From: Anaerolineales bacterium
GTDB taxonomy: Bacteria > Chloroflexota > Anaerolineae > Anaerolineales > Villigracilaceae
Assembly: GCA_014860745.1 (NCBI GenBank)
Contig: JACZJC010000074.1
Location: 124,001 to 188,000 of the forward strand
Length of the DNA: 64,000 nucleotides
Direction of reading: 5' to 3'
Shown here: positions 12,800 to 42,157 of the stretch, in pieces
Position numbering within the stretch: the first letter of the stretch is position 1
Layout of the letters: every line of letters begins with the position of its first letter
Translations under genes and position numbers: made by a program
The notes under the pieces: model-generated
What the model was told of the DNA's origin: nothing
The model's input: the letters and a program-made list of their open reading frames with translations, nothing else
Database searches by the model: none

Positions 12800-13025
12800 G
12801 AATGGCATCCTTCCAAAATTGGATTTAGATTCGATTATTGCGGAATTCGTACGGCCTTACTGAAAATGATGGTTATATTTACGGCAGCAATGCCTCCTTC
12901 CAGTCTTCCATCCTTTGGCAGGGGAGGAAATTCAAACACTGTGAACTTGCAATCTGATTATCCGATTTGCAGGTGCGATGTACATTCACAAAATCGCTTC
13001 TTACCGAACTGAACCCTGTTCCTGT

Positions 13026-15458: not shown

Positions 15459-15537
15459 CCTATGCTCCTATTACGATGATGGACGATCGGGTCATTGGAA
15501 TGTTCTATCGGTTATCGTCCGTGATCGATGCTCGAAT

Positions 15538-16347: not shown

Positions 16348-16356
16348 ATCGACTCC

Positions 16357-17145: not shown

Positions 17146-17238
17146 ACAAATCTCCTGCAAAGAGAGCTAGGCGCGAAGGCCGATGGAAAACGAATATAAT
17201 CGGAACATTCATATTATTATAATGAAAAAGTCAAAAAC

Positions 17239-17267
17239 TTGCAAATTTCATCAGATTCTTATATAAT
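17239..17267 (+). promoter_or_regulatory. Sigma-70-type promoter of the DeoR-family regulator
   Basis: TTGCAA (17239-17244), 17-base spacer, perfect TATAAT (17262-17267). The predicted start lies about 43 bases before the regulator ATG. AT-rich sequence on the other strand of the same gap probably drives the divergent nucleotidyltransferase-CBS operon. Confidence 0.7.
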
Positions 17268-17316
17268 GCGGCATCAAAGTGAGCAATTTCCTTCAACCCC
17301 AGGCCGAGACTAATAG

Positions 17317-18111
17317 ATGAGCAAACCTCTCATTCCAGCCCAACGGCGGGAGCGAATTCAGGAATATCTGGCTATTCACCAAATCGTCCGCACGGTTGAT
17401 TTGTGTGAAATGCTGGAAACTTCCGAAGCCACCGTTCGGCGTGATCTGGAATGGCTGGAACAGAAGGGAATTCTCGAGCGCACACATGGGGGCGCGATCT
17501 TAAACCAGCGCATGATCCTCGAACAGGAATACCAGCAGCGGGCCCAGCATCACCCGGAAGAAAAAAGACGCATCGGCGAACTTGCCGCATCCTTGATCGT
17601 GGAGGGTGATATTGTTTTCATCAACAGCGGCACAACGGCCACTCAGGTTCTTCAGCATATCCCCCGCAATTCCCGCATCACGGTTTTTACGAACAACGTT
17701 AGCGCGGTGATGGAACTCGGCGACCCGGGATACCACTACTTTATGACGGGAGGCGAATTCCAATCCCGTTCCAATTCAATCGCCGGCCGCTTCGCTCTCG
17801 ACAGCCTGGGGCTGGTCTATGCCAATAAAACGATCCTTGGCGTTGACGGAATCTCCCTAAAGCACGGCTGCACCGTGCCCACCAACCCCGAAGCGGATGT
17901 TGTCCGCAAAATGATCGAACGCACAAAGGGGCAGGTGATCGTCGTCGCCGACCACAGCAAATGGGGCGTGGTTTCGAATTTCCAGGTTGCAAATATTGAT
18001 GAGATCGACAAACTTGTGTCTGATGAACGACTTGATTCTTCGGCGCTGGAATCGCTTGCAGATCACAAAGTCTCTTGCTTGATCGCGGGTTCCACGCCCG
18101 TTCCGGCCTGA
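17317..18111 (+). CDS. DeoR/GlpR-family transcriptional regulator
   Basis: 264 residues. Residues about 8-62 are a DeoR-type helix-turn-helix, with the recognition helix in T-S-E-A-T-V-R-R-D-L-E-W-L and the usual R-T-H-G-G-A ending. The rest is the sugar-phosphate-isomerase-like sensor domain, with I-N-S-G-T-T (phosphate-binding loop), T-N-N, V-D-G-I and V-A-D-H-S-K-W-G. This family usually represses catabolic operons and is released by a phosphorylated sugar or polyol. It sits at the fork between two catabolic arms and is the natural candidate to control both. A good promoter lies upstream, but no clear ribosome site precedes the ATG. Confidence 0.9.
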   Translation: MSKPLIPAQRRERIQEYLAIHQIVRTVDLCEMLETSEATVRRDLEWLEQKGILERTHGGAILNQRMILEQEYQQRAQHHPEEKRRIGELAASLIVEGDIVFINSGTTATQVLQHIPRNSRITVFTNNVSAVMELGDPGYHYFMTGGEFQSRSNSIAGRFALDSLGLVYANKTILGVDGISLKHGCTVPTNPEADVVRKMIERTKGQVIVVADHSKWGVVSNFQVANIDEIDKLVSDERLDSSALESLADHKVSCLIAGSTPVPA

Positions 18112-18142
18112 CGCGCCCGGTTATTATTTTTGGAGAAGCCTG

Positions 18143-19141
18143 ATGTCATTTCTGTTTTCAAAAAAGCCCAAGAAAGAACCTACCCGTTTGTTCTTTGCCA
18201 CTGATATTCACGGCTCTGAGCGCACGTTCCGCAAGTTCATAAATGCGGGAAAATTCTACAACGTCAATGTGATCGTCATGGGCGGGGATATTCAAGGCAA
18301 GTTGATGATCCCCATCATCAAGGAGTCGAACGGGCATCATCGCGCCACGGTGCAGGGACGTGTGGAGCGGCTTACCACGGATGATGAATTAAAAGCACTC
18401 ACAGGCAAGCTGGATATTCTGGGTTTCTATTACAAGGTCATGGAAGAGGATGAATTCCGCGCCTTGCAAGCCGACCCAAAATCTGTGGAGACTTTATTCA
18501 ACGAGCTTGCCCGGCAAAAATTGACGAATTGGGTAAATCTGGCCGAAGAACGATTGAACGGTACCGGGATAAAATGCTTCGTCACGGGCGGCAATGACGA
18601 TGAGTGGGATGTTTTGAATGTAATGAAAACAGAACCTACAAAATCCTTTTTTGCCTGTGAAAACGAAATGGTGCAAGTTGATGACGATCATACAATGATC
18701 TCGATTGGTATAAGCACGCCGACTCCCTGGAATACCCCGCGCGAGGTTTCCGAGGAGGAATTAGGTGCAATGATAGAAAAAATGGCCGGGCTGGTCCCTG
18801 ATATGAACAAGGCCATTTTTAATTTCCACGACCCGCCAAAAGACTCTACTTTGGATACCTGTCCTATGCTGGATTGGGACAAGGATCCCCCGCAGCAAAT
18901 TGTTCAGGGAGGGCAACCCATTATGCACGGGGCAGGAAGCGCAGCCGTCCGCGAGGCGATCGAAAAACACAAGCCAATGCTTGGTCTGCATGGTCACATC
19001 CATGAATCCCAGTCTGTTGCAAAAATAGGGCGCACCACCTGCATCAACCCGGGCAGTGAATATGCAGAAGGCGTTCTGCGCGGCTGTCTGGTGACCTTTC
19101 TAGACGGCGATGTGCAGGGCTATCAAATGACAAGCGGCTGA
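18143..19141 (+). CDS. Calcineurin-like metallophosphoesterase
   Basis: 332 residues. Dinuclear metallophosphoesterase motifs appear in order: D-I-H-G (Asp21, His23), G-G-D-I-Q (Asp49), G-G-N-D-D in place of G-N-H-D, F-H-D-P-P, and G-H-I-H-E near residue 290, with N-P-G-S-E-Y next. It is likely a cytosolic phosphomonoesterase or phosphodiesterase. No signal peptide or membrane helix. GGAG precedes the ATG. It lies 31 bases after the DeoR gene and is probably cotranscribed. In this setting it could release phosphate from an organophosphate intermediate; its substrate cannot be read from the sequence. Confidence 0.85.
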   Translation: MSFLFSKKPKKEPTRLFFATDIHGSERTFRKFINAGKFYNVNVIVMGGDIQGKLMIPIIKESNGHHRATVQGRVERLTTDDELKALTGKLDILGFYYKVMEEDEFRALQADPKSVETLFNELARQKLTNWVNLAEERLNGTGIKCFVTGGNDDEWDVLNVMKTEPTKSFFACENEMVQVDDDHTMISIGISTPTPWNTPREVSEEELGAMIEKMAGLVPDMNKAIFNFHDPPKDSTLDTCPMLDWDKDPPQQIVQGGQPIMHGAGSAAVREAIEKHKPMLGLHGHIHESQSVAKIGRTTCINPGSEYAEGVLRGCLVTFLDGDVQGYQMTSG

Positions 19142-19293
19142 TAAAACGCCCCGCAGGTTTTTTTGATTAATCCTGTTTGGAAATCAAACCCGCAGGACGA
19201 TGAATGAAAGGAGGCGGCACATCCAGATCGTGTGGTTGATTTTTAAGGAGATTGTATACGGATTGAATTAATTCAAACCAAAGGAGAAAAGAA

Positions 19294-20922
19294 ATGGCTA
19301 CAGCTACGGCAAAACCAGAAGTCTTTACTCGAAAAGCCTCCGGGCTTGTACGTGTTATGTCTCCGTTCTCAGCTTTCGTCTATAACATTTTGACGATGGG
19401 CTTGATCTTTCCCTGGACGTATCTTTGGGCGCCGGGTGCGTTGCCGGGCGGCAAACTCGTCTGGGGAATTTTGCTCGCGATGGTGATCGAAATTCCCATT
19501 GCGCTTGTGTATGTGTGGCTTTCCACAGCCATGCCCCGCTCCGGCGGTGACTATGTTTTTCAGAGCCGCGTCTTTGGCGGCGGTGTGGCGTTCACGGTTG
19601 TGATGTCCGGCTATGTCATCTGGATCCTGCAATGGGTTGCCCTGTCGGGATGGCTGCTGGCATATTTGGGATTTGCGCCCTTGTTCCTTGGGCTTGGCGC
19701 ATTTACCGACAACGCTGCCATGACCAACCTGGGGTTGTGGTTCACCGGCTCGACGGGCATCATCATCACCAGCATTCTTAATGCCTTTGTTGCCATGATG
19801 ATCCTCATCAGCGGTTTCAAGAATTATGTCCGCTTCCAATCTGTGATGATCGTTGGCACCCTGCTTGCCTTTATTACCATGCTGGCTGTACTTTTCACGG
19901 GGAACCCCGATTCTTCTGTGGCGAAGTTGGATGCATTTGCGCTTGCCATCAGCGGTGTATCGAACTTTGTTCAAACCGCCAAAGACGCCACCGTCGCGGC
20001 AGGTATCGACCTGAATCCTCCCTTCAGCATGATCGCGACCTTGCTGGTTGCGCCCATCGCATGGACATCCCTGCAGTGGGCGACATATTCTGCCCAGCAG
20101 AACGGTGAGATTAAGAATGCGCGCTCGTTCAAGGACCAATTGTTCATTATCGTCGGTTCGTTGATCTTTACCGGCATTCTGCTTGCCATCCTCGCCGCCG
20201 CTCTTGAGAAGGCAGTGGGCACAGAGTTTCTTTACATTGCCGGTGCTGGATATTGGTCTTTGATTGGCGAAGCAACCATTTCCGGTTTCTGGCTGTGGCC
20301 CAATATTATTGCTGTGGCGCTGTCTGGCAGTCCGCTGGTGGTCATCATCATCGGCCTCGGCTATATCCTAAACTCGCATCAGATTGTCCACAACTGCTAC
20401 ATCGGCATGACGCGCGTCATGGTCGCCATGTCGCTCGACCGCCTGCTCCCCGAAGCGATTAGCAAGGTGGACGACAAACGCCATACGCCGGCCAATGCGC
20501 ATTGGGCGTATTTCATCGCCAGTATCCCGGTCATCCTGTTGTACAACCTGTACCCCGGCTGGGTTGGGCTGACACTTGGTGTAACGTTCGCCTGTGGTTA
20601 CGTGTTCGTCATCACCTGCCTGGCAGGTGCCTTGCTCCCATATCGCGCAAAGGATGTATACGAGTCTTCGCCCGGCGCAGCCTACAAGGTTGGCGGCATT
20701 CCGCTGGTGACTATTCTGGGCGGGCTTGGTTTTATCTTTGGTACGGTCTTCCTATTGATGTTCATGTTCGATCCGCGTCTCGGTCTGACCAGCCCCCTGG
20801 CTTACCAGATCGTGTTCGGTGTACTGCTCGTTTCGGCGATCTGGTATTTCATTGCCAAGAATACGCAGAAATCCAAAGGCATCAACGTGGATTACGCCTT
20901 CAAGGAAATTCCACCGGAATAA
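19294..20922 (+). CDS. APC-superfamily amino acid/amine permease, copy 2
   Basis: 542 residues with about twelve to fourteen hydrophobic helices. The first helix region (S-P-F-S-A-F-V-Y-N-I) and the P-R-S-G-G-D-Y-V-F-Q-S-R segment fit APC-family transporters, which import amino acids and polyamines by ion symport. It is only distantly similar to the permease at 7074 and lacks its choline-branch motifs, so the two arms use different transporters. AAAGGAG lies before the ATG. A GTAGGG-type palindrome follows the stop, then the kinase copy 2. It is likely the importer for the amine processed by the plus-arm enzymes. Confidence 0.85.
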   Translation: MATATAKPEVFTRKASGLVRVMSPFSAFVYNILTMGLIFPWTYLWAPGALPGGKLVWGILLAMVIEIPIALVYVWLSTAMPRSGGDYVFQSRVFGGGVAFTVVMSGYVIWILQWVALSGWLLAYLGFAPLFLGLGAFTDNAAMTNLGLWFTGSTGIIITSILNAFVAMMILISGFKNYVRFQSVMIVGTLLAFITMLAVLFTGNPDSSVAKLDAFALAISGVSNFVQTAKDATVAAGIDLNPPFSMIATLLVAPIAWTSLQWATYSAQQNGEIKNARSFKDQLFIIVGSLIFTGILLAILAAALEKAVGTEFLYIAGAGYWSLIGEATISGFWLWPNIIAVALSGSPLVVIIIGLGYILNSHQIVHNCYIGMTRVMVAMSLDRLLPEAISKVDDKRHTPANAHWAYFIASIPVILLYNLYPGWVGLTLGVTFACGYVFVITCLAGALLPYRAKDVYESSPGAAYKVGGIPLVTILGGLGFIFGTVFLLMFMFDPRLGLTSPLAYQIVFGVLLVSAIWYFIAKNTQKSKGINVDYAFKEIPPE

Positions 20923-20947
20923 TACAATCTTTATGAGCGTCTGAAAC

Positions 20948-21005
20948 GTAGGGACACAGCGGGTCGACAATGATTGTGACGATAAATATTTCGCTGTGTC
21001 CCTAC
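20948..21005. repeat. Palindromic element, GTAGGG...CCCTAC family, intergenic
   Basis: 58 bases with 14-base perfect inverted ends, GTAGGGACACAGCG and CGCTGTGTCCCTAC. It lies in the gap between permease copy 2 and kinase copy 2, 20 bases before the kinase ATG. Its ends match the family at 43548 and 41488, but the inner sequence differs. Confidence 0.85.
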
Positions 21006-21024
21006 AATCTTATAAGGAGAATTA

Positions 21025-21924
21025 ATGTCAGTCATCGAAGAAGTGGTTGCAAAAATCGAAGATTGGAAAGGGAATGATATATCCATTCAGCCGTTATCCG
21101 GCGGACTGACCAACACCAACTTTAAAGTGGATGTAGACGGGATTCCATATTTTGTGCGCGTACCCGGCGAAAGCACGGAACTGCTGGCCATCGACCGCAA
21201 GAACGAATACTACAACACCAAAGCTGCTGGTGAGGCGGGTGTGGCGCCGAGAATTCTTCATCACCTGCCCGAATACAATGTGATGGTGATCGAATTCCTG
21301 AATGGAAAGACGATGTCGAAGGAAACGTTGGGCGAAAAAGGGATGCCGACCCGTATGGCGCAGGCCATCAAAAAATTGAATCAAGGCGCGCGCTTCTTTT
21401 CGGACTTCAACATGTTCCGCCTCACGGAGTATTACCTCCGCCTGTGCAGTGAGCGTGGAATAAAAATCCCGAAGGGATATGATGAACGCATGGAGACGGT
21501 CAAGCTCATTGAACAGGCCATGAGCGTCAGGCCGTTACCCACCGTCCCATGCAATAACGACTTGCTGGCTGAAAATTATATTGACGATGGAAATCAGCTC
21601 TGGTTGATCGATTATGAATACAGCGGGAACAACGATCCGACTTTCGAGTTGGGCAACACCTGCCAGGAAATGCAATTTAACGACGAGCAGATCGCGGAAG
21701 TCTGTGCGGCGTATTTTGGTGAGGCAAAAACGGATATGATCGCCCGCATGAAATTGAACATGATCATGTCAGATGTGGGCTGGGGATTGTGGGCCGCCAT
21801 TCAGGCGAAGATATCCACCATCGATTTTGACTTTTGGGGCTGGGCCATCGAACGCTGGGGCAGGGCCGAGGAAAAAATGGATTCGAACGAGTTTGAGGGG
21901 TGGCTGATGGACGTGAAAAATTAA
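21025..21924 (+). CDS. Choline/ethanolamine-kinase-like phosphotransferase (APH fold), copy 2
   Basis: 299 residues, homologous in layout to copy 1: the same L-S-G-G-L-T-N-T-N-F-K nucleotide loop and the C-terminal L-I-D-Y-E-Y-S-G-N-N-D-P metal site of choline kinases. In the Brenner motif the usual His is Asn (C-N-N-D-L-L-A-E-N), while catalytic Asp and the last Asn remain. The change may tune or weaken catalysis. AAGGAG lies before the ATG. It is followed by the second dehydrogenase-GcvT gene, as copy 1 is linked to the first. An ATP-dependent kinase of an amino alcohol or related compound is the best call. Confidence 0.8.
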   Translation: MSVIEEVVAKIEDWKGNDISIQPLSGGLTNTNFKVDVDGIPYFVRVPGESTELLAIDRKNEYYNTKAAGEAGVAPRILHHLPEYNVMVIEFLNGKTMSKETLGEKGMPTRMAQAIKKLNQGARFFSDFNMFRLTEYYLRLCSERGIKIPKGYDERMETVKLIEQAMSVRPLPTVPCNNDLLAENYIDDGNQLWLIDYEYSGNNDPTFELGNTCQEMQFNDEQIAEVCAAYFGEAKTDMIARMKLNMIMSDVGWGLWAAIQAKISTIDFDFWGWAIERWGRAEEKMDSNEFEGWLMDVKN

Positions 21925-21975
21925 TTGCGCAGCGGAGTTGCAAATCCGCCTTACGCAAAATAAAAGGTGAAATAA

Positions 21976-24405
21976 ATGAAAACGCAAGCGGAAATTGTTG
22001 TGATCGGCGGCGGGATTTTCGGGGCGCAGGTTGCGTATCACCTTGCAAAGTACGGGCGCAAGGATGTTGTGATCATCGAAAAGGGCGAGATCGCGAGCGG
22101 TGAATCGTCTCATGCGGCGGGGCTGGTGACCCAGTTTGCCACCTCGCAGGCCATGCTCAAATTCCGCATGTACAGTGTTGAGTTGTACAGTGAGCTGGGA
22201 TTGTTCAACCACGTAGGCAGTTTACGAGTCGCTTCCAGCAAGGAACAACTTAAAGAGTTGGAGCGCAGCGTGAGTCGCGCCAAGGCATTGGGTTTGGATT
22301 GCGAAGTCATCGGCCCTGATGAAGCGGTGAAACATATGCCGCAAATTTCAAACAAGGATTTATACGGCGGCATTTATCTCCCGCGGGATGGGCAGCTCGA
22401 CCCGTATATTACAACCACTTCAATGGCGAAGTTTGCCAAAGACCTCGGTGTGGAAATATATACGAACACCCGTGTGACGGGGATCAAGCTTTCGGCGAAG
22501 GGGGAGATCGAGCGAGTGGTGACAGATAAGGGCGAGATCCGATGCGAGATCGTCATCAATGCGGCGGGGTTGTGGGCTCCGCGCATCGCCGCCATGGTGG
22601 GACTGCACTTCCCAACCACCCCAGTGGACCATCAACATATCGCATTGCGGGCTGTGCCCGGCCATGAATTTTCGTCAGACACGCCTTGCTTGCGAGACCC
22701 AGACAATTTGGTGTACATGCGCCAGGAAGCAGGCGGACTTGTCATTGGTGGGTACGAACCAAAACCGCTGCCGCGTTGGATCGACGGCACGCCATGGGAA
22801 CATGGCAGCAAGAGTTTCCCCGGCGATTTTGACCAATTTGAAATGCTGCTCGAAGGAGCCATCCGACGGCTGCCATTTTTGGATCAAGCCGGTATCATCA
22901 CTCTGGTGCGACATCCGGGCGCGTACACGCCGGATTGCCAGCCCTTGTTGGGTCCGATGGCTGGAGTGCGCGGAATGTGGATGATGGCGGGCATTTCTCT
23001 CAATGGATATGGCGGCGCAGGCGGAATGGGCAAGCTGCTGGCTGAGTGGATCATCGAAGGCGAAGCGCCGATGGATGTGTATGCCTACCGTGCCACCCGC
23101 TTTGGCAATTATTATTCAGACCCCGTATATGCGGCAGACCGTACAGTGGAAAGTGTCAAGTATTACTATCGGATGAGATTCCCGCATGACGAACATGAAA
23201 CAGCGCGGCCACATCGTGTGAGTCCGGTCCATTTCCGTTTGATGGAAAAAGGCGCAGTCTATGGCGAAAAGTTTGGCTGGGAACGCGTAAATTATTTCGA
23301 ACCAGGAAAGGAATCGCGCCGCATGGGGGAGGATCAGCGCCAGTTTGGCTGGAACAAGCCGCCGTTCTTCGACCGTGTGGGGCAGGAGCATGTTGCCACC
23401 CGCGAACGCGTCACGCTTTTCGACCTGACCTCGTTTGGAAAGATCGAAGTGAAAGGCAAAGGCGCACTGCCTTTGTTGCAGCGCCTGACAGACAGCGACA
23501 TCAACAAGCCTGTCGGCAGTGCAATTTACACGCAATTCCTGAACACACGCGGCGGGATTGAATCGGACTTGACCGTTACGCGTTTGGGTGAGGATAATTT
23601 CTGGGTTATCACAGGTTCGGGATTCATAGCGAACGATCTGGCGCGTATCCAGATGCATGTGGATGAAAAAGATGGTGAGGTATCCATCCGTGATATCACG
23701 CAGGATTATGCCTGTCTTGCTCTGTGGGGACCGAAGGCGCGCGCGGTGTTGTCGCAGATTACCACCAGCGATGTATCAAATTCCGCCCACCCATATTTAC
23801 AGACCAAGCAGATCGATATCAACGGCACAAAGGTGTACGCACAACGTGTCAGTTATGCGGGCGAGTTGGGTTGGGAGCTTTACATTCCCAATCAACGCGC
23901 CACGCCCGTGTGGGATATGCTCATTGAAGCGGGCAGGGAGTTTGGTCTTGAAGTCGGCGGTTACAAGGTGCTTGATTCATTGCGGCTTGAGAAAGGCTAT
24001 CGTTATTTCACGACCGATATCACCCCGTCTGAAACTCCCTACGAAGGCGGGCTTGGCTTCTGCGTTCATCTCGATAAAGGCGACTTCATTGGCCGGGATG
24101 CCCTGGTCAAACAAAAAGCAGAGGGCATCCGCCGCAAACTATGTACCCTTACCTTAACCGATGGTGATGAGTTCACTCAAATCTACGGCGGCGAAGCAAT
24201 TTATCACAAAGAAAAGGTATTATCCCGCGTCCGCAGCGGTGGATATGGATATACCTTGAAGAAGAATATACTGTATGCCTACCTGCCCATTGAAATGGCA
24301 AAACAGGGCAACCGCTTCATTGTTGACCTGATAGAAGGTCGGCGTGAAGCGGAAGTGACCGCGTCTGTGTTATTCGACCCGAAAGGCGAGAGGGCGCGCG
24401 CGTGA
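21976..24405 (+). CDS. Dimethylglycine/sarcosine-dehydrogenase-type FAD enzyme fused to GcvT domain, copy 2
   Basis: 809 residues with the same two-part build as copy 1: FAD domain (G-G-G-I-F-G near residue 11; His46 in G-E-S-S-H-A-A-G-L as likely covalent FAD ligand) and a C-terminal folate-binding GcvT domain with L-R-L-E-K-G-Y-R-Y and F-I-G-R-D-A-L-V-K-Q-K-A-E-G-I. The latter stretch is shared almost exactly with copy 1, but the FAD domains differ clearly, so the pair is an old duplication with distinct substrates. It should remove N-methyl groups oxidatively and load tetrahydrofolate. It stands between kinase copy 2 and the PfkB-like gene. A short AAGGTG site precedes the ATG. Confidence 0.9.
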   Translation: MKTQAEIVVIGGGIFGAQVAYHLAKYGRKDVVIIEKGEIASGESSHAAGLVTQFATSQAMLKFRMYSVELYSELGLFNHVGSLRVASSKEQLKELERSVSRAKALGLDCEVIGPDEAVKHMPQISNKDLYGGIYLPRDGQLDPYITTTSMAKFAKDLGVEIYTNTRVTGIKLSAKGEIERVVTDKGEIRCEIVINAAGLWAPRIAAMVGLHFPTTPVDHQHIALRAVPGHEFSSDTPCLRDPDNLVYMRQEAGGLVIGGYEPKPLPRWIDGTPWEHGSKSFPGDFDQFEMLLEGAIRRLPFLDQAGIITLVRHPGAYTPDCQPLLGPMAGVRGMWMMAGISLNGYGGAGGMGKLLAEWIIEGEAPMDVYAYRATRFGNYYSDPVYAADRTVESVKYYYRMRFPHDEHETARPHRVSPVHFRLMEKGAVYGEKFGWERVNYFEPGKESRRMGEDQRQFGWNKPPFFDRVGQEHVATRERVTLFDLTSFGKIEVKGKGALPLLQRLTDSDINKPVGSAIYTQFLNTRGGIESDLTVTRLGEDNFWVITGSGFIANDLARIQMHVDEKDGEVSIRDITQDYACLALWGPKARAVLSQITTSDVSNSAHPYLQTKQIDINGTKVYAQRVSYAGELGWELYIPNQRATPVWDMLIEAGREFGLEVGGYKVLDSLRLEKGYRYFTTDITPSETPYEGGLGFCVHLDKGDFIGRDALVKQKAEGIRRKLCTLTLTDGDEFTQIYGGEAIYHKEKVLSRVRSGGYGYTLKKNILYAYLPIEMAKQGNRFIVDLIEGRREAEVTASVLFDPKGERARA

Positions 24406-24416
24406 AAATGAATTTT

Positions 24417-24493
24417 AAACACGAAGGACACAAAGGTCACGAAGGAAGTGCAATAAAAGGGTTTCCCCTTTGTGTACTTCATGCCCTTTGTAT
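24417..24493. repeat. ACACGAAGGACACAAAGG-type palindromic repeat
   Basis: The left arm (AAACACGAAGGACACAAAGG...) is mirrored, with several mismatches, by the right arm (...CCTTTGTGTACTTCATGCCC). It occupies the gap between dehydrogenase copy 2 and the PfkB-like gene, so an in-frame ATG at 24472 is repeat sequence rather than the true start. Confidence 0.65.
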
Positions 24494-24504
24494 TTAATTT
24501 TTTT

Positions 24505-25602
24505 ATGGATCAAAAGAAATCAAATAACCTTGCGTATATTGGCTTCGGCATGTTGACGCCCGTCTACATCATGGCGCTGGATAAGCTCCCAAAACGTAAT
24601 ACCGGCGCGGTCGTTCATCAGGTCAGCGAATATGTTTACGACGATGCAGCGATCATTGCCTGCAATCTACGTCAATGGAATGTGCCTACTGCCATGATAG
24701 GCACTTCCGTCGGTGACGACCTGCTCGGGCGCCATGTTGCAGATACCTTGAAAAAAATGGGAGTGCAGGGCAGGGTGCGTTTTACAAAAAAATATAAAAC
24801 GCCGCTCGAAGTCAACGTCTCGGACAGAAAAGGCGCGCGCACCTATTTCTGGCAGCGCTCCGAGGAAATCCTGAGTACGTTGGATACCGCCGACCTTTCC
24901 TTGATTAAGAAATCCAAATTGCTGTACGTGGATTGGTACGACGGCGACGCGCACATCCTGCGCGCAATGAAAGAGGCTCACCGCCGTCATGTGCCGGTCT
25001 TCCTGAATTTTGAGCATGGGCATAACCATCCAGAACTGCTCAAGAAATACGCGGGTTTGGTCACGATCTGCCAGGCGGTGACGGATGCCGCCCAGATCGG
25101 CAAAAAACAAGCCATGTTATCTGTGGCGCGTAAACTGTTTAATTCTGGTATAAAGACAGCCATCATCACCATGGCCAGCCAGGGCTGTATGGTTGTCCAC
25201 GGCGAGGAGATCATCCGCGTGCACGCGCCCAAGGTAAAAGCCGTGGATGGATCAGGCGCAGGCGCAACTTTCTCCTCAGGTTATATTTATGGTTATCTTC
25301 ATGGGTGGAGTCTCGAAGATTCCGTCCGTTTTGCGATTGCGGCGGCATCCCTCAAGGTGACCCATTCCGGTTTGAAGATGCACCCGCTGCAGGAGATCGC
25401 AGCATTGGCGAGGACCCTGCGGGTTGACCACATGGTCTATCGCGGCGACCAGTTCCATACGATGAGAAAATTATTTCGACTTCCGCAAAGCGGGCCGCTT
25501 GTCGATAACGCTTTGGTTTCCGGCGGACGCAAGCTGGCTGAAAAGTTTTTACCAAAGAAAAAGATCGAACGCAGAAAGATCAAGAGATCGCTGGTTGAAT
25601 AA
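24505..25602 (+). CDS. PfkB/ribokinase-family protein with an altered catalytic motif
   Basis: About 365 residues of ribokinase fold. Seen: N-terminal G-x-G and substrate segments, the D-D-L-L-G-R-H element, and the C-terminal family signature as D-G-S-G-A-G-A-T-F. In active PfkB kinases that signature reads G-A-G-D, the Asp being the catalytic base; here it is Ala254. The protein may be a weak kinase, use another residue, or act as a binding or sensing protein. The C-terminal 60 residues are basic. I start at 24505 because the longer frame begins in a repeat; no ribosome site is clear. Placed between demethylating enzymes, a sugar- or amine-linked role is plausible but unproven. Confidence 0.75.
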   Translation: MDQKKSNNLAYIGFGMLTPVYIMALDKLPKRNTGAVVHQVSEYVYDDAAIIACNLRQWNVPTAMIGTSVGDDLLGRHVADTLKKMGVQGRVRFTKKYKTPLEVNVSDRKGARTYFWQRSEEILSTLDTADLSLIKKSKLLYVDWYDGDAHILRAMKEAHRRHVPVFLNFEHGHNHPELLKKYAGLVTICQAVTDAAQIGKKQAMLSVARKLFNSGIKTAIITMASQGCMVVHGEEIIRVHAPKVKAVDGSGAGATFSSGYIYGYLHGWSLEDSVRFAIAAASLKVTHSGLKMHPLQEIAALARTLRVDHMVYRGDQFHTMRKLFRLPQSGPLVDNALVSGGRKLAEKFLPKKKIERRKIKRSLVE

Positions 25603-25646
25603 CACCGTTGATTCATAAGCACGAATTTATTGGAAGGAAAAGACTC

Positions 25647-27083
25647 ATGACCTTTGCAACTCTTTTGACCCAGGAACAAGTGGAACGGATCCACGAGGCC
25701 TCGCTCGAGATTTTGGAAGAAGTCGGCCTCAAAGTCCGTTACGAACCCGCCCGCGAACTATTTAGACTGCATGGATGTCATGTGGAAGAGGAACGCGTGA
25801 AATTCCCGCGCGCTATCGTGGAAAAATTCCGCAAAATGGCGCCGCCGTCATTTACATTCCACGGGCGCGACCCGAAATTCGATAGAACAATTCCCCGCGA
25901 CAGCCCGGTCATTGTTACAGCGAGTTCAGCGCCTGATATCATCGATCCAGTTACGGGCGAGGAAAGACGCGCCGAGTCCATCGATATCGCGCGCATTGCC
26001 CATCTCATCAACGAACTGCCCGGCTACGACATTTTCTCCATCTCCACGTTGGCGGATGACGCGCCTGCGGATCAATTCACAATCTCGAGGCTGTATCCGT
26101 CCATCAAGTATTGTCTTAAACCGATCCGTGTCACCACAACGAACATGAAGGATACGTATAGCGTGATGGAAATGGCGTATATGGTTGCGGGCGGGAAGGA
26201 GGCGTATGCGGAGCATCCGTTCCTGACGCATCACTATTGCCCTGTGGTCTCGCCGCTGACGATGGATAACCTCTCCACTGAAAATGTAATGTTCTTTGCC
26301 AAAGAAGGACTGCCTGTTTATCCGACCATTGTGCCGAATGCGGGACTTACTTCCCCCATGTCGATGGCAGGGTCTTTGACACAGGGCAACGCGGAATTTT
26401 TATCCGCGCTGGTGTTGATGCAAATGGTAAAGGAAGGCACGCCCACGATTTATGCAACGCTTGGGACGGTTGCTGATATGCGCTCGGGCGCTTACACATC
26501 CGGAGCGATTGAGTGCGGCATGCTGCACATGGCCTTTGCTCAGATTGCGCGTTTTTATAATGTCCCATGCGGCGGTTACATCGGCCTGACGAATGCAAAA
26601 GTGAACGATGCGCAGGCTGGCTATGAAACGGGCATGTCCGGGATTGCCGGCCTGCTCTCCGGCATGGATATGTTCAATATAGGCGGGTTGATCGACGCCC
26701 TCAAGACCTTTGATTTTGCCAAGGCCGTCATCGATGATGAAGTGGCACAGATGATGAAACGCATGAAACGCGGAATTAATTTCAGCGACGATGAACTTGG
26801 CTTGTCGCTTATCAAGGAGATCGGACCCGGAGGCTCCTTTATCACCGCCAAGCATACGATCAGCCGCATGAAGACCGAGGCTGTGATGACAAAATTGGCC
26901 GACCGTGACGCCCGCACAATTTGGGTGAAGAAGGGTTCCACCGATATTCAAACCCGCGCCATGAAGAAGGCAAAGGAAATCATGACCAGCAACACCGGCT
27001 CGTTGATTTCTCCCGAGCTGGATGCAAAACTTCGCGCGGCATTCCCGGGAATGGTGGCGGGCGAATTGCTGCCGATCGAATAA
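25647..27083 (+). CDS. MttB-superfamily methyltransferase, non-pyrrolysine type
   Basis: 478 residues, whole-length member of the trimethylamine methyltransferase (MttB) family of TIM-barrel enzymes that move a methyl from a quaternary or tertiary amine to a corrinoid protein. There is no in-frame amber codon, so this is the non-pyrrolysine branch, whose characterised members act on glycine betaine, carnitine or proline betaine. Landmarks: T-N-A-K-V-N-D-A-Q-A-G-Y-E and the L-S-G-M-D-M-F stretch. GGAAGG before the ATG at 25647 decides the start; a longer frame lacks one. No corrinoid protein or MtgA-type partner lies in this window. Together with two dimethylglycine/sarcosine dehydrogenases, stepwise demethylation of a betaine is a reasonable inference. 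Confidence 0.85.
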   Translation: MTFATLLTQEQVERIHEASLEILEEVGLKVRYEPARELFRLHGCHVEEERVKFPRAIVEKFRKMAPPSFTFHGRDPKFDRTIPRDSPVIVTASSAPDIIDPVTGEERRAESIDIARIAHLINELPGYDIFSISTLADDAPADQFTISRLYPSIKYCLKPIRVTTTNMKDTYSVMEMAYMVAGGKEAYAEHPFLTHHYCPVVSPLTMDNLSTENVMFFAKEGLPVYPTIVPNAGLTSPMSMAGSLTQGNAEFLSALVLMQMVKEGTPTIYATLGTVADMRSGAYTSGAIECGMLHMAFAQIARFYNVPCGGYIGLTNAKVNDAQAGYETGMSGIAGLLSGMDMFNIGGLIDALKTFDFAKAVIDDEVAQMMKRMKRGINFSDDELGLSLIKEIGPGGSFITAKHTISRMKTEAVMTKLADRDARTIWVKKGSTDIQTRAMKKAKEIMTSNTGSLISPELDAKLRAAFPGMVAGELLPIE

Positions 27084-36385: not shown

Positions 36386-38473
36386 TTAAACACCAATGGG
36401 TCCGGGGAACTCTTTCTCGAGAAGCTTGGATATTTCCATTCCGGAGATGGGAGAGCCGAGCAGGAATCCCTGCGCGTTATCGCAGAGCAGGGATTGTAAG
36501 AACGTAAGCTGCTCTACTTTTTCCACACCTTCACCGACCACTTCAAGGCCTAGGGAGCGGGCCATGGTGATGATGGCCGCGATCAACGATTCGTTTTTTG
36601 GATTGTTTTGGATATCCTGAATGAAGGATTGGTCGATTTTCAAGACCTTGAGAGGGAATTGTTTTAAGTAACTGAGAGAGGAATACCCGGTCCCAAAATC
36701 ATCAAGGGATGTGTGGACTCCCTGCGCATTCAATTCGTTCATGATTTTGACGGTGTAATCTTTGTCCCGCACGGCGACGCTTTCGGTAATTTCCAACCGC
36801 AGGGCTTCACCGGGCAGACCGGTCTCCGTAAAGATCCGCGTGATCTTTTCAACGAGGTTTTTATCCTGGAACTGACGGGCGGAAATGTTGACAGATACCC
36901 AGAAATTTGGATGCCCCGCCTCTCTCCAGGCTTTGGCCTGGGCGCACGCTGTACGCAGGACATATTCTCCAATCGACAGGATCAGACCCGTATCCTCGGC
37001 AACCTGAATGAAATCCTGCGGCGCTAGCAGGCCCCTCAATGGATGGAGCCAGCGCAGCAGGGCTTCCGCGCCGACAGGTTTGCCGTTTGCAAGGGAAACG
37101 ATCGGCTGGTAATGCACCAGCAATTCATTCCGCTCGACGGCATGTTTCAATTCTCCCTCGATGCGGATCAGTTCGATCGCGCTCGTGTGCATGGTATCGT
37201 CGAACACTTGATATTGGTTTCCGCCCATCGACTTGGCGTAATACATTGCAGAATCCGCATCCCGCAGAAGTTCCCCGGCGGTTGAATACCTGCTGTTGAA
37301 CAGTACGATGCCGATGCTGGCAGCCGGGGATCGTTCTACAACACCCAGCAGGGTGGTTGTGATCAACTGTCCCTTGATTCGGTCCGCGACTCGCCGCGCG
37401 TTGTTGATGTCGCTCACCGTATCGAGCAATATGGCGAACTCGTCTCCACTCAGGCGGGAGATCGTGTCATTGGGTCGCAGGCATTGCTTCAGGCGGTTGG
37501 CTGCGGTGATGAGCAATTGATCGCCAAAGGCATGACCAAGGCTGTCGTTGACGACTTTGAACCGGTCCAGGTCGATGAACATCACTGCGAATAAATCTTC
37601 TGGGTTGCGCTTTGTTCGCTCCAGGCGGTTTTGCAAACGGTCTAAAAAGAGCACCCGGTTCGGCAGGCCGGTCAGCGCATCGTGGACTGCATCGTGAGCC
37701 AGGCGTTCTTCCGCCAGTTTTCTTGCAGTGATATCGGATTGCGATCCCGCCATCCGGTAGGCATGTCCTTTCGCGTCCCTCACGGCCAGGCCGCGGCTGA
37801 CCCCCCATCGATAGGCGCCGTTGGAATGTTTTATTCGATATTCACATTCAAAATGGGGGGTCACGCCTTTAAGATGCGCCGCAAGGTTGTCTTGAACCTG
37901 CTTCTGGTCATCCGGGTGAACAAGCTTGAACCAGTCATTGGGATCGGTGCCGATTTCATCCTCCTTGAAACCGAGCATTTCTTTCCAGCGGATCGAGTAA
38001 TAAATTTCGTTTGTCTTCAAATTCCAGTCCCAAATGCCGTCGTTGGCGGCGCGGACGGCCAGCGCGTAGCGCTCTTCGCTGGCGCGGAGTTTACGGTCCA
38101 TGCTGTGTTTATAGAGCGCCAGGGCAATATTTGAATTTAGATCATGGGCTTCGAGCGGTGTGGTGATGTAGCCGTAGGCCTGGGCTTTCACTGCGCTTTG
38201 CAAAGTGCTTGTATCAGCATGCGCGCCGATAAAAACCACTGGGATGTCGAAATTGGCATGGATGTGTTTCGCGGCCTTTAATCCGTTGACCTGGCCCTGG
38301 AGGTGAAATTCCATTAGAACAAGATCGGGCTGTAGCTCCTCCACTTTTTGGATGGCGGTTTCCCCGCGGTCCGCCTGCCCGGCAACAATATAACCAAGGC
38401 TTTCCAGCTTGGCGGCGATGTTCAGGGCTGTCTCAGCCTCGTTTTCTGCGATGAATATTCTCTCTTTGGGCAT
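36386..38473 (-). CDS. REC-PAS-GGDEF-EAL protein with a degenerate receiver
   Basis: 695 residues. Receiver-like domain 1-120, PAS/PAC 130-255, GGDEF 260-425 (active-site S-G-D-E-F at 342-346), EAL 435-690 (E-A-L-L-R-W from Glu470, with D-D-F-G-T-G-Y and G-E-G-V-E). Both cyclase and phosphodiesterase motifs look intact, so it may make or break c-di-GMP. The receiver is unusual: the phospho-acceptor Asp is Glu55 and the conserved switch Lys is Thr105, so it cannot be phosphorylated normally and may be locked or act as a docking domain. No membrane helices, thus cytosolic. The gene is convergent with the PilZ gene. Confidence 0.92.
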   Translation of the reverse strand: MPKERIFIAENEAETALNIAAKLESLGYIVAGQADRGETAIQKVEELQPDLVLMEFHLQGQVNGLKAAKHIHANFDIPVVFIGAHADTSTLQSAVKAQAYGYITTPLEAHDLNSNIALALYKHSMDRKLRASEERYALAVRAANDGIWDWNLKTNEIYYSIRWKEMLGFKEDEIGTDPNDWFKLVHPDDQKQVQDNLAAHLKGVTPHFECEYRIKHSNGAYRWGVSRGLAVRDAKGHAYRMAGSQSDITARKLAEERLAHDAVHDALTGLPNRVLFLDRLQNRLERTKRNPEDLFAVMFIDLDRFKVVNDSLGHAFGDQLLITAANRLKQCLRPNDTISRLSGDEFAILLDTVSDINNARRVADRIKGQLITTTLLGVVERSPAASIGIVLFNSRYSTAGELLRDADSAMYYAKSMGGNQYQVFDDTMHTSAIELIRIEGELKHAVERNELLVHYQPIVSLANGKPVGAEALLRWLHPLRGLLAPQDFIQVAEDTGLILSIGEYVLRTACAQAKAWREAGHPNFWVSVNISARQFQDKNLVEKITRIFTETGLPGEALRLEITESVAVRDKDYTVKIMNELNAQGVHTSLDDFGTGYSSLSYLKQFPLKVLKIDQSFIQDIQNNPKNESLIAAIITMARSLGLEVVGEGVEKVEQLTFLQSLLCDNAQGFLLGSPISGMEISKLLEKEFPGPIGV

Positions 38474-38577
38474 AGGCTCTCCGGTATAGGGCGCTGTTCA
38501 TAATTTCCGCATCATACGTTTCATTTAAACCTGTCAGGTCTGGTTCGTGGTGATCTTCACCTCTTCCCTACAAGACC

Positions 38578-38934
38578 CTAATAAACGATCACATGATCTG
38601 CTTCGACAGTCCAATCGCCGAGCAAATCCATGCTGCCCATTTCAATACCTTCTGTGAAATCTTCCAACCCGAGACCTCGGGCTTCTGAGCAGGTTCCTCA
38701 AGTGGCAACTTTGCCGCGCCTGGCCAGTGACTTGACCATGCGCTCGACGTTGTAATATCCCTCAGGCGTCTTTTGTCCCTTGCGGGCGCAAAAGATACCA
38801 TCGGCAACCAGAAATACTTTTATCTCCACTGCCTCGCGTTTGACCAAATTCATGGCATGGCGCAGGGCGTTATAGGAGCGTTCATTACCGTACGGGGCGT
38901 CGTTGATAATGAATAGATAACTTTTTGTTTCCAT
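38578..38934 (-). CDS. DsrE-family protein, probable selenoprotein (in-frame TGA at codon 79)
   Basis: If the TGA at 38698-38700 is read as selenocysteine the product is about 118 residues, a full-length DsrE-family (COG1553-like) protein. Before the TGA: F-I-I-N-D-A-P-Y-G and the K-T-P-E-G-Y-Y-N-V-E-R segment typical of the family. After it, in the same frame: G-T-C-S-E-A-R-G-L and a complete C-terminus with D-L-L-G-D-W-T-V-E-A-D. Homologues carry C-G-T-C at this site, so Sec79 replaces the first cysteine. An 18-base hairpin with a GGUC loop begins 14 bases after the TGA, matching bacterial SECIS geometry. An AAAGG site precedes the ATG at 38934. The end, read as TAG near 38578, is slightly less certain. 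A nonsense mutation is the main alternative; selA-D are not in this window. Confidence 0.75.
38666..38683 (-). promoter_or_regulatory. SECIS-like stem-loop downstream of the DsrE TGA
   Basis: On the mRNA, AGCCCGA pairs with UCGGGUU (seven pairs, one G-U) around the loop GGUC. The loop starts 21 bases after the UGA; in E. coli fdhF a GGUC loop follows its UGA by a similar distance (about 18). Bacterial SECIS elements lie inside the coding region just behind the UGA and need a G at the start of the loop, which is satisfied. Confidence 0.7.
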
Positions 38935-39021
38935 TGGATTCGCCTTTCTTCAATTATTTTTACTGCTTCTTCGCGCAACCCAGCTCCACCAGTCCTCCCC
39001 CAACCGATAGGACGGAGGGGG

Positions 39022-42000
39022 TCAGCCTTCCACAATCTTCACCTCTTCTTCCGTCAACCCATACAACTCATAGACAAGACCATCAATCGCCCCGTCCACA
39101 GACTTGATTTGGCGCTCATAGACATCCATCTCTGCCTGCGTCTTCGCCCCCGCCTTGGACTTGTGCAGCTCCAGCATTTGACTCACCAGCGCGACCATCT
39201 TCTCGTGCTGTGACGTTTCGGTGGGGTTGTTGAAGTCAATAGGATGAATAGGTAGTTTCTTTATATAGGCGATTTTCATTTGCGAGAATATTTCACCAGT
39301 TGAGCCAATGTTGTTCTGAAAATAAAAATCAAGAAGCCTTGAGTTAATTAAACCCAATATGTATTTCAGGTTATAAGATTTATCTATTACTGTAGTGCTA
39401 TGTAGGGAGTTCTTAACAAAATAATTATTTCCCTCATCAAGGACACCTATAAGCTTTTTAGCATTTTGACGAGTTAAAATCTTTTCCTGCCTATAGACTT
39501 CTGGATTCCGAAGCCATACACCTGACCGACTTAATTTCTCGAAATCAGAATGCGATTTTGCGCTTTGTTTTGCTTTTTGCTGCTTCCTTTTCAATTCCTC
39601 ATCCACAAGGGATTTATCATAGCAAATAAATCTTCCTGTCCACTCGATAGAATAGCGGGAAACTTCATTTCCTTCTAACCATTTTTCGTAACGTCCATCT
39701 TGTTTTTTGTCAGAGAGAAGCAAATCTTTTATTTCACCAAGAATAATCCCGTCTTTCACGTCACACACTACATCCAAATCCACTGCATTATTACGTATTG
39801 TAGAAATCAAGCCACCAAACTCTTCATTTTGTTTTACATTAAGCAAATACGAGTCATTCTTCAAGAATGTTGATTGGGAAACCTTGTTGGTTATATATTC
39901 ATTGTTTTGTAAATCAACTATGTCACTCCAGATTTCAACTACATTCTTTTGAGGATTCGATTCTTTGGTAAGAATAAAAATTGATGTATCAACTGCAGCT
40001 CCAAAAACTGCTTTCTTGAATGCTAGAATGTTATTTATAGCTGTTTGTTCTAATAACATTTTTCGCAAGCCTGACAATTGCGCATTTGTCAGCAAACGAT
40101 TTGAGACAATCAAGCCACACTTACCTTGATCCCGTAATATAGCCAAACTTTTCTCGATGAAGAGAGCAAATGTGTTTGCTCTGCCGACAGCAGCCGAGTA
40201 AGTCTTAAGATAATATTCAGTTATATCTTTTACTGTTGATTCAACTGAGATGTAAGGCGGGTTACCTATAATTGCGTCAAATCCACCAGCATTCATTATT
40301 TCAGGGAATTCAGATTTCCAGTCAAAAGCTCGTGTCTGTTTCATTTCTTCTATATTTGGAAACATCTGCCCCGCAAAATAATCATTCCCAATCAAACTAT
40401 TCCCATTCTTGATATTCTGACTCAGATCAGGCAGAACCGTCTGATGAAAGAGCGTGCGTTCCTCGGTCAGTTCGCCTTCGCGCAAATCTTCCAAGGCCTT
40501 CAACGAAAGCGAGAAGCGCGTCACCTCCACGGCTTGCGGGTCAATGTCCACGCCGAAGAGATTGTTCTTCAAGATGTCGCGCTTCAACTTGGCGGTCAGG
40601 CGAATCTGTCCGCTCTCGTCACGGTAGAAAGACTCACGGTCACGCTTTTCCTTGCCCGCCCGCGCAAAATAATCCTTGTGCCATTCGATCAGCTTGCCAT
40701 ACGCGCCCAGCAAAAACGAACCCGACCCGCACGAAGGGTCAAGCACTTTTATTTTGGCAACATCCGCGGGCGTGAGTCTCTTCCCCTCTCCAGACGGCGC
40801 TCTTCCGTCTGGGGAGGGGCCAGGGGAGGGGTCCTTCAATAAACTGCCCAACGTATTCTCAACGATGTAATCCACAATGTACTGCGGGGTGTAATACACG
40901 CCGCCCGCCTTGCGTACCTCGGGCTTCTCCTCGATCTTCACCTGCTTCTCAGTCGTCCGCACCACACGGCCCAAAAAGCGTTCGTAGATCGTGCCGAGGA
41001 TTTCCACAGGCAGCACCGCAAAGTTATACGGCGAGTTCTCAGGCTGCAAGTCTGTGATCACAGCTTGAACCACTTTATTCGAAACAAAAACATTTTCCAG
41101 TTCAGGACGAGGCGCGAAGATACTGCCGTTATAGAAGTTGTTCAATTCCTCGAAGATCGTCTTGCAGGATGAAAACCAGCCCGCGTCACGCTGCGCGGCC
41201 CCCAAGCCTGCCTCTGTCACCCGATCTTTTATCTCGCTGAGATAGTCTCTGTCCACCTCTCGGTCAGACAGCGCTTTGATAAAGATCAAACGGTCGATCA
41301 ACAATTGCACCGCCGCCGTGATCAAATCACCATCGGCAGAAGGATTAAGCTTCTTCATGTCCTTCGCCAGCAGCACCCGCCAGCCGTCCTTCTCATCGTC
41401 CATTTCCGCAAGGAAAGCCTTATCAGGCGGAATACGGTTGGCTTTTACTTTCTGCGGCGAAAGATAACGAGACCAAAGCCCGTTGTTGGGACGGGGCTTG
41501 CCCCCGTCCTTGCCTTCAGGGCGACCGTGAAGTTCGCCCCTACGCGAATCCTCCATCACATGATTTCTCTCGAACAACTCCCACAACTCATCGAACTTAT
41601 CCACATAATCCGTGTACTTCCAATCGATCACACGGAAGTTATTCACCGCCTCAGGCTTCGCCGCGAAAAGCGTGCAGTCCAACACGATGAACTCCTGAAA
41701 ATCGGTCAGGATGGCAAAGTCGATCTTCTCCGAAGGCTTGCTGTTCTGCGTGGAATAGGCGTAGGAATACACCTGATACAGCCAGCGCGGGTCTTTCATC
41801 GAATACTTGACCTGCTTGGCGTCCATCACCAGCACGTCGCGCCCGTCCAGGTTCAGGATGTAATCGGGGCGCAGTCCCTTCCGGTTCGTCACCTGCACCT
41901 TGAATTCATAATGCGCATGCGAAAGCCCTTCGTTTTCCGTGTTCCAGTTCAAATAACGGAACAAGGGACGGATAAAGTTATTCTCGATCTGCGCTTCCGC

Positions 42001-42087
42001 CGCCTTCTCAAGCGTGGCTTCGTGCGCGCGAAAATCTTCAACAAGTTTAATAATTTTGGTGTGGGCTTCCACTTTGGAATAGGTCAT
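39022..42087 (-). CDS. Single-chain type IIG-like restriction-modification enzyme (Eco57I family)
   Basis: About 1021 residues. The N-terminal 170 residues hold a PD-(D/E)XK-type nuclease core (R-P-D-Y-I-L-N ... V-M-D-A-K-Q). The middle is the N6-adenine methyltransferase: motif I D-P-S-C-G-S-G-S-F near residue 450, motif IV N-P-P-Y near 600. The last 350 residues are the target-recognition part. DNA is cut or methylated by one polypeptide. GGAG five bases before 42087 sets the start. Two repeat elements are read in frame, at residues about 182-200 and 420-437, both in linkers. From about 39.2 to 40.3 kb, the recognition region, the DNA is visibly richer in A/T than the rest, suggesting separate acquisition. 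No separate methylase or specificity gene is adjacent. Confidence 0.85.
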   Translation of the reverse strand: MTYSKVEAHTKIIKLVEDFRAHEATLEKAAEAQIENNFIRPLFRYLNWNTENEGLSHAHYEFKVQVTNRKGLRPDYILNLDGRDVLVMDAKQVKYSMKDPRWLYQVYSYAYSTQNSKPSEKIDFAILTDFQEFIVLDCTLFAAKPEAVNNFRVIDWKYTDYVDKFDELWELFERNHVMEDSRRGELHGRPEGKDGGKPRPNNGLWSRYLSPQKVKANRIPPDKAFLAEMDDEKDGWRVLLAKDMKKLNPSADGDLITAAVQLLIDRLIFIKALSDREVDRDYLSEIKDRVTEAGLGAAQRDAGWFSSCKTIFEELNNFYNGSIFAPRPELENVFVSNKVVQAVITDLQPENSPYNFAVLPVEILGTIYERFLGRVVRTTEKQVKIEEKPEVRKAGGVYYTPQYIVDYIVENTLGSLLKDPSPGPSPDGRAPSGEGKRLTPADVAKIKVLDPSCGSGSFLLGAYGKLIEWHKDYFARAGKEKRDRESFYRDESGQIRLTAKLKRDILKNNLFGVDIDPQAVEVTRFSLSLKALEDLREGELTEERTLFHQTVLPDLSQNIKNGNSLIGNDYFAGQMFPNIEEMKQTRAFDWKSEFPEIMNAGGFDAIIGNPPYISVESTVKDITEYYLKTYSAAVGRANTFALFIEKSLAILRDQGKCGLIVSNRLLTNAQLSGLRKMLLEQTAINNILAFKKAVFGAAVDTSIFILTKESNPQKNVVEIWSDIVDLQNNEYITNKVSQSTFLKNDSYLLNVKQNEEFGGLISTIRNNAVDLDVVCDVKDGIILGEIKDLLLSDKKQDGRYEKWLEGNEVSRYSIEWTGRFICYDKSLVDEELKRKQQKAKQSAKSHSDFEKLSRSGVWLRNPEVYRQEKILTRQNAKKLIGVLDEGNNYFVKNSLHSTTVIDKSYNLKYILGLINSRLLDFYFQNNIGSTGEIFSQMKIAYIKKLPIHPIDFNNPTETSQHEKMVALVSQMLELHKSKAGAKTQAEMDVYERQIKSVDGAIDGLVYELYGLTEEEVKIVEG
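40780..40831. repeat. CCTCTCC...GGGGAGGGG hairpin repeat inside the restriction enzyme gene
   Basis: About 52 bases with a CCAGACGG...CCGTCTGG stem and C/G-rich flanks, read in frame as a Pro/Gly/Ser-rich insert (residues about 420-437) just before methyltransferase motif I. Its composition differs sharply from the conserved sequence on both sides. Confidence 0.65.
41488..41543. repeat. GTAGGG-family composite element inside the restriction enzyme gene
   Basis: Contains GGGACGGGGCTTGCCCCCGTCC followed by GGGCGACCGTGAAGTTCGCCCCTAC. The same two blocks, in the same order and orientation, make up the intergenic element at 43548-43613. Read in frame it gives a Gly/Arg/Lys-rich linker at residues about 182-200, between the nuclease and helical domains. 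Confidence 0.8.
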
Positions 42088-42157
42088 TGTCTCTCCCATG
42101 GAATTTGACCTGATTTTACAACAAAAAGACCCCTTCCATCCTTCTTACGGCTGGAAC

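Follow-up and report, generated by a model that had tools for sequence, protein, structure and literature searches.

A probable DsrE-family selenoprotein gene with its own SECIS hairpin in a genome of the Anaerolineales

The literature places DsrE-like selenoproteins with a UxxC motif in Pfam family PF02635 in the Sargasso Sea (2005, PMC1088965), in Desulfovibrio vulgaris (2006, PMC1794560) and, under the names DsrE 1 and DsrE 2, in the GOS data set (2008, PMC2398784). Reviews of 2022 and 2026 also list them (PMC9312934, PMC13188914), the latter describing the functions of such proteins, in the sections cited here, as largely uncharacterized. According to the same partial set of texts, three selenoproteins were recorded for Chloroflexota in the 2006 survey (PMC1794560), and the bacterial SECIS (bSECIS) consensus comprises a loop of 3-9 nt with G at its positions 1 and 2, a stem of 4-16 bp, a spacing of 16-37 nt and an energy of -7.5 kcal/mol or lower (PMC13188914). 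No description of an Anaerolineae branch was found in the available sections of the open-access literature on selenoproteins, DsrE and Chloroflexota or Anaerolineae, and the corresponding sections of PMC5736913 and PMC5424206 contain no DsrE. A sizeable Anaerolineae/Chloroflexota branch of DsrE selenoproteins seems, therefore, to be undescribed.

The window, that is, the whole 64,000-nucleotide stretch of DNA that was analysed, lies on contig C18 of a 4.32-Mb draft genome (G000; 82 contigs, estimated completeness 98.24%, estimated contamination 3.58%). Its minus strand carries, from an ATG at 38934 to a TAG at 38580-38578, a DsrE gene of 118 codons in which a TGA is the sole in-frame interruption. 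Judged from sequence analysis, and with a probability of roughly 0.96, this gene would encode a functional DsrE-family selenoprotein and carry the corresponding SECIS element. The features of the locus are the following:

36386..38473, minus strand: downstream neighbour, response regulator-PAS-GGDEF-EAL protein (Pfam)
38578..38934, minus strand: predicted gene of a 118-residue DsrE-family selenoprotein, with Sec from UGA codon 79 and a TAG end
38666..38683, minus strand: putative bacterial SECIS hairpin, 7-bp stem of 38683-38677 with 38672-38666, GGUC loop at 38676-38673
38689..38691, minus strand: Cys82 codon, probable resolving thiol of UxxC, Cys in 55/55 Sec and 56/56 Cys homologues
38698..38700, minus strand: in-frame TGA, predicted Sec79 and position 1 of U-G-T-C, only TGA or Cys codons here among 115 loci
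38788..38790, minus strand: Cys49 codon, third conserved thiol, Cys in 54/55 Sec and 54/56 Cys homologues
38943..38947, minus strand: AAAGG, Shine-Dalgarno-like candidate read from the sequence, 8 nt 5' of the ATG
39022..42099, minus strand: upstream neighbour, Eco57I-type restriction-modification methylase (Pfam)

The initial annotation had described a frame broken only by a TGA at codon 79, standing at the position of the first Cys in the C-G-T-C of homologues and followed by a family C-terminus. All three parts are borne out: the 118-residue read-through frame contains that single stop at 38700-38698, the homologue alignment places it on the first Cys, and the read-through product matches the Pfam DsrE model PF02635 over residues 4-117 (66.6 bits, cut-off 22.7). 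Gene and TGA were rightly located at 38578-38934, but the strand, which is the minus one, had been left unstated; the plus strand was discarded as the coding strand of this interval, since the one frame of it that was translated holds no DsrE-type protein. With U-G-T-C at 79-82 and membership of PF02635, the product fits the definition of the DsrE-like selenoprotein by Zhang and Gladyshev. No selenoprotein model of NCBIfam release 20 matches it at E up to 1, so that such genes may be misannotated; at this threshold, TusD and TusC models give sub-threshold matches, and TusD TIGR03012 reaches 30.4 bits against a cut-off of 89.25. A listing of open reading frames of at least 60 residues contains a 78-residue fragment (38934-38698) and leaves the rest of the frame unlisted; the present reading recovers the full gene, of which mechanical ORF calling leaves only the first 78 codons.

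Homologues were collected at three depths. Among 61 near genomes (60 relatives and the window genome; E 0.001 or better), 16 gave matches, and the 15 full-length ones, the window's own included, each contain exactly one TGA at the same column, as had been predicted for related genomes; the sixteenth, in G055, is weak (26%) and without a stop, and G003 has an additional second match of 24 residues. The gene is patchily distributed within the genus, being present in 12 of 37 genomes, and the homologous protein L018 is 91% identical to that of the window gene. The window genome itself holds five further DsrE-family matches, all without a stop. In a phylum sample of 400 genomes (1e-10), 32 genomes match, and the 36 matches listed comprise 6 TGA copies in 5 genomes and 30 copies without a stop. 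A species-wide scan of one genome per species (84,980 species) yielded 524 relatives of a Sec query, and its best 80 loci have TGA in 46 and a Cys codon in 34, counts that do not represent natural frequencies because they come from the best 80 of 524.

Pooling 15 near-genome loci, these 80 and 27 from the phylum sample gave 122 loci and, after removal of 7 exact duplicates, 115 distinct ones (including the best 80 of 524), in which the Sec column is TGA in 57, TGC in 46, TGT in 12 and never anything else. Left out of the pool were the near-genome loci L032 and L033 and six phylum-sample matches without a locus, among which was the second TGA copy of G176; the genes of L043 and L044 were in the set before. 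For the hairpin and tree counts, the near-duplicates L077, L105 and L133 were dropped and the partial L069 was excluded. Two Sec gene copies per genome or MAG were seen in G176 and in the pairs L094 with L095 and L081 with L083.

The seven-pair hairpin with a GGUC loop that had been reported 21 bases after the TGA is real, but it is the apical loop that lies at 21 nt, the stem starting at 14 nt. With a spacing of 21, a loop of 4, a stem of 7 bp, GG and -8.9 kcal/mol, it falls within the published bSECIS limits, as do 47/55 Sec genes, 10/56 Cys genes and 148/2711 upstream control positions in the set that includes the best 80 of 524; the eight Sec genes outside these limits are L024, L075, L079, L080, L092, L101, L107 and L114. 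Fold energy alone is ordinary (-13.1 kcal/mol over 50 nt, z -0.12 against dinucleotide shuffles), and the comparison of energy with shuffles was set aside as uninformative. All seven pairs appear in 0.6% of 20,000 synonymous recodings of the window gene with its protein sequence fixed, and it is the comparison across homologues that takes the hairpin far beyond chance. In register, after removal of near-duplicates, the five core pairs are complete in 50 of 55 Sec genes versus none of 56 Cys genes (best 80 of 524 included); synonymous recoding of the Sec genes (1000 trials) keeps all five in a mean of 1.9 and a maximum of 7 of 55, and the Cys genes form a mean of 1.57 pairs, close to their null of 1.55. 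The five Sec genes without the full core in register are L024, L075, L092, L124 and L130. Two MAG Sec forms among them, L130:4226-4270 from Actinomycetota and L124:520-564 from Armatimonadota, do have a hairpin 3' of the TGA, but in another register, a hint that the SECIS was rebuilt or that these forms arose separately.

Among the matches listed, loop positions 1-2 of the fixed register are GG in 55/55 Sec genes, synonymous choice for the commonest residue is nearly invariant (Gly +10 is GGG in 39/39, Leu +9 is CTC in 39/40), and the clearest covarying pair is C-G in 38 Sec sequences and U-A in 13. At 3 of the 7 pairs, both partners have changed and still form a pair; cells changed on both sides, which count sequences and not events, number 24 versus 8.8 in shuffles, with 0 of 500 shuffles as high. 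Three of five covariation measures exceed every shuffle, and two stay within the shuffled range, namely pairs changed on both sides (135/500) and further pair types (59/500). RNAalifold arrives at the same five pairs as the core. From 53 sequences, with the window gene and its near-copy L042 (G429) held out and L018 kept in training, a covariance model was built that scores 55.8 bits at the window site, with E of about 6e-16 genome-wide by a rough calibration, and 20.1 bits at the next-best site of the genome, so that the SECIS search proposed as a check was passed. The structure is thus conserved beyond the demand of the protein according to recoding, RNAalifold, the held-out model and three of the five covariation measures. 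An Rfam scan of 38500-38950 detected no SECIS, its sole hit being a PYLIS_3 match attributable to chance (E 3.9). Of 17 further genome sites matched by the model, the next-best ones inspected (L159, L160 and L161) lack, as judged by eye, both this hairpin and a convincing frame and were dismissed as chance. Together with the Cys homologues as a natural negative set, the 55 SECIS sequences and their covarying pairs provide training material for a SECIS model.

An AlphaFold2 model computed from 15 rows, with Sec modelled as Cys (pLDDT 83, pTM 0.81), has as its best PDB match by fold E. coli YchN (1jx7; 32% identity, TM 0.82); next come DsrEFH and further entries of DsrE type, and TusBCD is also among the matches. 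In profile alignments, Sec79 falls on the first Cys of the YchN CKTC and on the DsrE Cys in 2hy5. SelB and Sec-tRNA(Sec) would bind the hairpin just 3' of UGA79, and the ribosome would then insert Sec instead of stopping, yielding a 118-residue protein of YchN/DsrE fold with a Sec79-Gly-Thr-Cys82 centre. In this centre, the selenolate of Sec79 could accept sulfane sulfur as Se-S, and Cys82, perhaps with Cys49 in its place, could resolve the Se-S so that the sulfur is handed on or released as sulfide. The fold, the relay cysteine and the sulfur-related neighbours of relatives suggest, therefore, a sulfane-sulfur (persulfide) carrier or reductase acting via Sec79 and Cys82, a role whose chemistry, partners and physiology are deduced and to which we give about even odds.

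The neighbours were compared over up to 4 kb of flank at the 46 Sec and 34 Cys loci of the best 80 of 524, each neighbour family being named from one representative (Pfam, NCBIfam). Against the neighbours of these 80 loci, no conserved operon is seen at the window locus and a sulfur-gene neighbourhood is absent from it; a relative of the adjoining methylase occurs near 2/46 Sec and 0/34 Cys loci, and this neighbour is not conserved. Within the same best 80 of 524, an ArsR or ArsR-rhodanese gene lies near 18/46 Sec loci, in 13 of those 18 on the same strand and no more than 111 bases upstream, an SQR-like flavoprotein near 13/46, a cysteine desulfurase near 6/46 and a relative of a lactamase-fold/rhodanese protein near 4/46. 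The name SQR denotes a likeness and not an assignment, because the representative scores 241 bits against the NF049943 cut-off of 525, and an SQR-like partner elsewhere in the window genome was sought and rejected, as there is only a weak 25.5-bit match to the protein of the relatives. At least one of ArsR/rhodanese, SQR-like and lactamase/rhodanese genes is found at 22/46 Sec versus 15/34 Cys loci of these best 80 of 524 and, being about equally common beside the Cys forms, such sulfur neighbours speak to the role of the family and not to selenium. A small double-zinc-ribbon protein has relatives downstream of the gene at 6/46 Sec loci (L083, L086, L097, L105, L109 and L112) and near 0/34 Cys loci of the best 80 of 524. 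Elsewhere in the window, 11864-27083 contains two FAD-oxidoreductase/GcvT fusions (13026-15458, minus strand; 21976-24405, plus strand), an MttB-family methyltransferase without an in-frame TAG (25608-27083, plus strand) and, close to these, two choline-kinase-like proteins, and it is perhaps a methylated-amine or choline catabolic island.

A true selenoprotein could also have another job, as a thiol-disulfide or peroxide reductase or in metal(loid) detoxification under an ArsR regulator, an alternative that contests only the functional half of our explanation and that we consider somewhat less probable than a sulfur role, if a real competitor. As a redox motif, UxxC is generic, the single ArsR-rhodanese gene that was scanned among the neighbours exceeds the cut-off of the metalloregulator subfamily NF033788, and P-type ATPase relatives (Pfam E1-E2_ATPase) occur near 4/46 Sec and 0/34 Cys loci of the best 80 of 524; however, the protein has the DsrE/YchN fold with Sec at the sulfur-relay cysteine, and rhodanese, SQR-like, lactamase-fold/rhodanese and cysteine desulfurase genes are among its relatives' neighbours. 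Extending the sulfane-sulfur role to the lineage, we tentatively propose that one lineage of Anaerolineae has kept Sec, without reversal to Cys among the matches listed, in a dedicated carrier of sulfane sulfur whose gene, in many members, is next to those of an ArsR-rhodanese sensor and of an SQR-like flavoprotein that oxidises sulfide, together possibly forming a selenium-based relay for sulfide oxidation or persulfide detoxification.

The presence of selA, selB, selC (tRNA-Sec) and selD, which had been named as a check, was confirmed for all four in the window genome: a tRNA-Sec of 93 nt and 68.5 bits, called by ARAGORN as tRNA-Sec with anticodon tca, selB at 347 bits, selA at 546 bits and a pair of selD genes that score 361 and 358 bits, both above the cut-off. 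Each selD gene contains one in-frame TGA in the context ACAG-U-ASK, which we take to be the usual Sec position of SelD, and therefore at least two further genes of this genome need UGA decoding. The selD pair (L035 and L036, on contigs C41 and C2) shares 266 of 311 residues in an ungapped alignment and reflects either a duplication or assembly contamination, estimated at 3.58%. In 14 control genomes, tRNA-Sec exceeds its cut-off in 5, selB in 2, selA in 1 and selD in 2; since RF01852 matches all 14, with 5 over cut-off, the tRNA-Sec was judged by length, score and anticodon. As a discriminator among relatives the tRNA is useless and was abandoned, at least 61 bits being reached in 42 of 61 genomes (11/15 carriers of the DsrE gene and 31/46 others). 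At 63 bits or more it is found in 11/15 carriers; the other four (G013, G030, G038 and G049) have no clear tRNA-Sec, and selB is over cut-off in three of them, with only a fragment in G038.

All that the sequence reveals of codon 79 is that it is TGA, so that UGA might in principle be recoded as Trp or Cys and not as Sec. This is very improbable in view of the complete Sec machinery, including tRNA-Sec(tca), and the position-specific hairpin; moreover, homologues of the genus, such as L019 and L022, use TGA as a true terminal stop, and the column elsewhere holds Cys and never Trp among the matches listed.

Still less probable is a pseudogene, or an ordinary DsrE gene of the Cys form recently hit by a nonsense mutation, a reading for which the in-frame stop, the patchy occurrence in the genus and the position of the window gene outside the sulfur neighbourhood of its relatives could be adduced. 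Further stops in relatives, which would have counted against the selenoprotein reading, are present as a trace, in 2/57 Sec loci: L079, which sits in the window gene's own 12-row subclade, has a late TAG, and L110 has a TGA and a TAA, and both are perhaps decayed or badly sequenced. Against a pseudogene stand the identical TGA in 57 of the 115 distinct loci (best 80 of 524 included), a SECIS kept by synonymous constraint, and the selection and tree described next. From codon +14 to the end, comparison with nine relatives gave dN of 0.016-0.205 and dS of 0.84 or more, saturated in three, rates by which the part of the gene after the TGA evolves as coding sequence under purifying selection. Over the SECIS codons, which offer only 10 or 11 synonymous sites, dS is lower than in both flanks in 8 of 9 pairs, the exception being L071, where it is slightly higher than that before the TGA.

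In the tree, which is based on 117 columns only and has many weak forks, 53 of the 55 Sec rows among the matches listed fall into a single group (96/99) that contains no Cys row. The Actinomycetota Sec row L130 adjoins this group (88/85) and the Armatimonadota Sec row L124 stands apart. By title or kinship, 49 of the 53 rows (among the matches listed) are Chloroflexota; the group also takes in two rows with the label Bacillota (L094, L095), one with Pseudomonadota (L084) and one with Desulfobacteraceae (L118), through either transfer or mis-binned contigs. The conservation described here refutes the pseudogene reading and agrees with the earlier argument that a random nonsense mutation fails as an explanation. 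A sequencing or assembly error of TGC or TGT into TGA, conceivable in a draft of 82 contigs, has a negligible probability, as the same TGA recurs in independent assemblies of the genus, the order and other phyla, accompanied by a hairpin that the Cys genes lack.

The locus would thus add a well-supported selenoprotein branch to Chloroflexota. The gene had been announced as a new selenoprotein, and both member and branch are new, but the kind was described in 2005, according to the cited part of PMC1088965. If the sulfane-sulfur role is correct, a testable question is raised, namely why selenium is used in a sulfur carrier.

The published DsrE-like selenoproteins resemble the window gene, in the portions of the literature cited, by PF02635, UxxC, a predicted SECIS downstream of the UGA and Cys homologues, and differ in that none is placed in Chloroflexota there; the likeness to the published protein WP_014524487.1 is one of description, and in our tree the Desulfobacteraceae Sec row L118 falls within the Chloroflexota group (among the matches listed). 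YedF, according to the sections cited (PMC5322559), has a DsrE-like domain with a CGXC motif and is linked to selenium use, but it carries an extra N-terminal SirA-like domain and Cys, not Sec, is described in its motif. DsrE3A and DsrE4 of sulfur oxidisers are likewise DsrE-type proteins, and DsrE3A carries and transfers thiosulfate; both are, however, Cys proteins, and DsrE3A has Cys-X7-Cys instead of U/C-x-x-C (PMC4175335, cited in part). DsrE and TusD, subunits of DsrEFH (2hy5) and TusBCD (2d1p), share the fold, with the DsrE cysteine aligned to Sec79, whereas the window gene has no partner subunit genes directly beside it and its TusD score remains below the cut-off given above. E. coli YchN (1jx7) has Cys for Sec and, in the profile alignment, no Cys at the position of Cys49, but it is the best solved relative, with 91.3 bits by profile and its CKTC at the position of UGTC.
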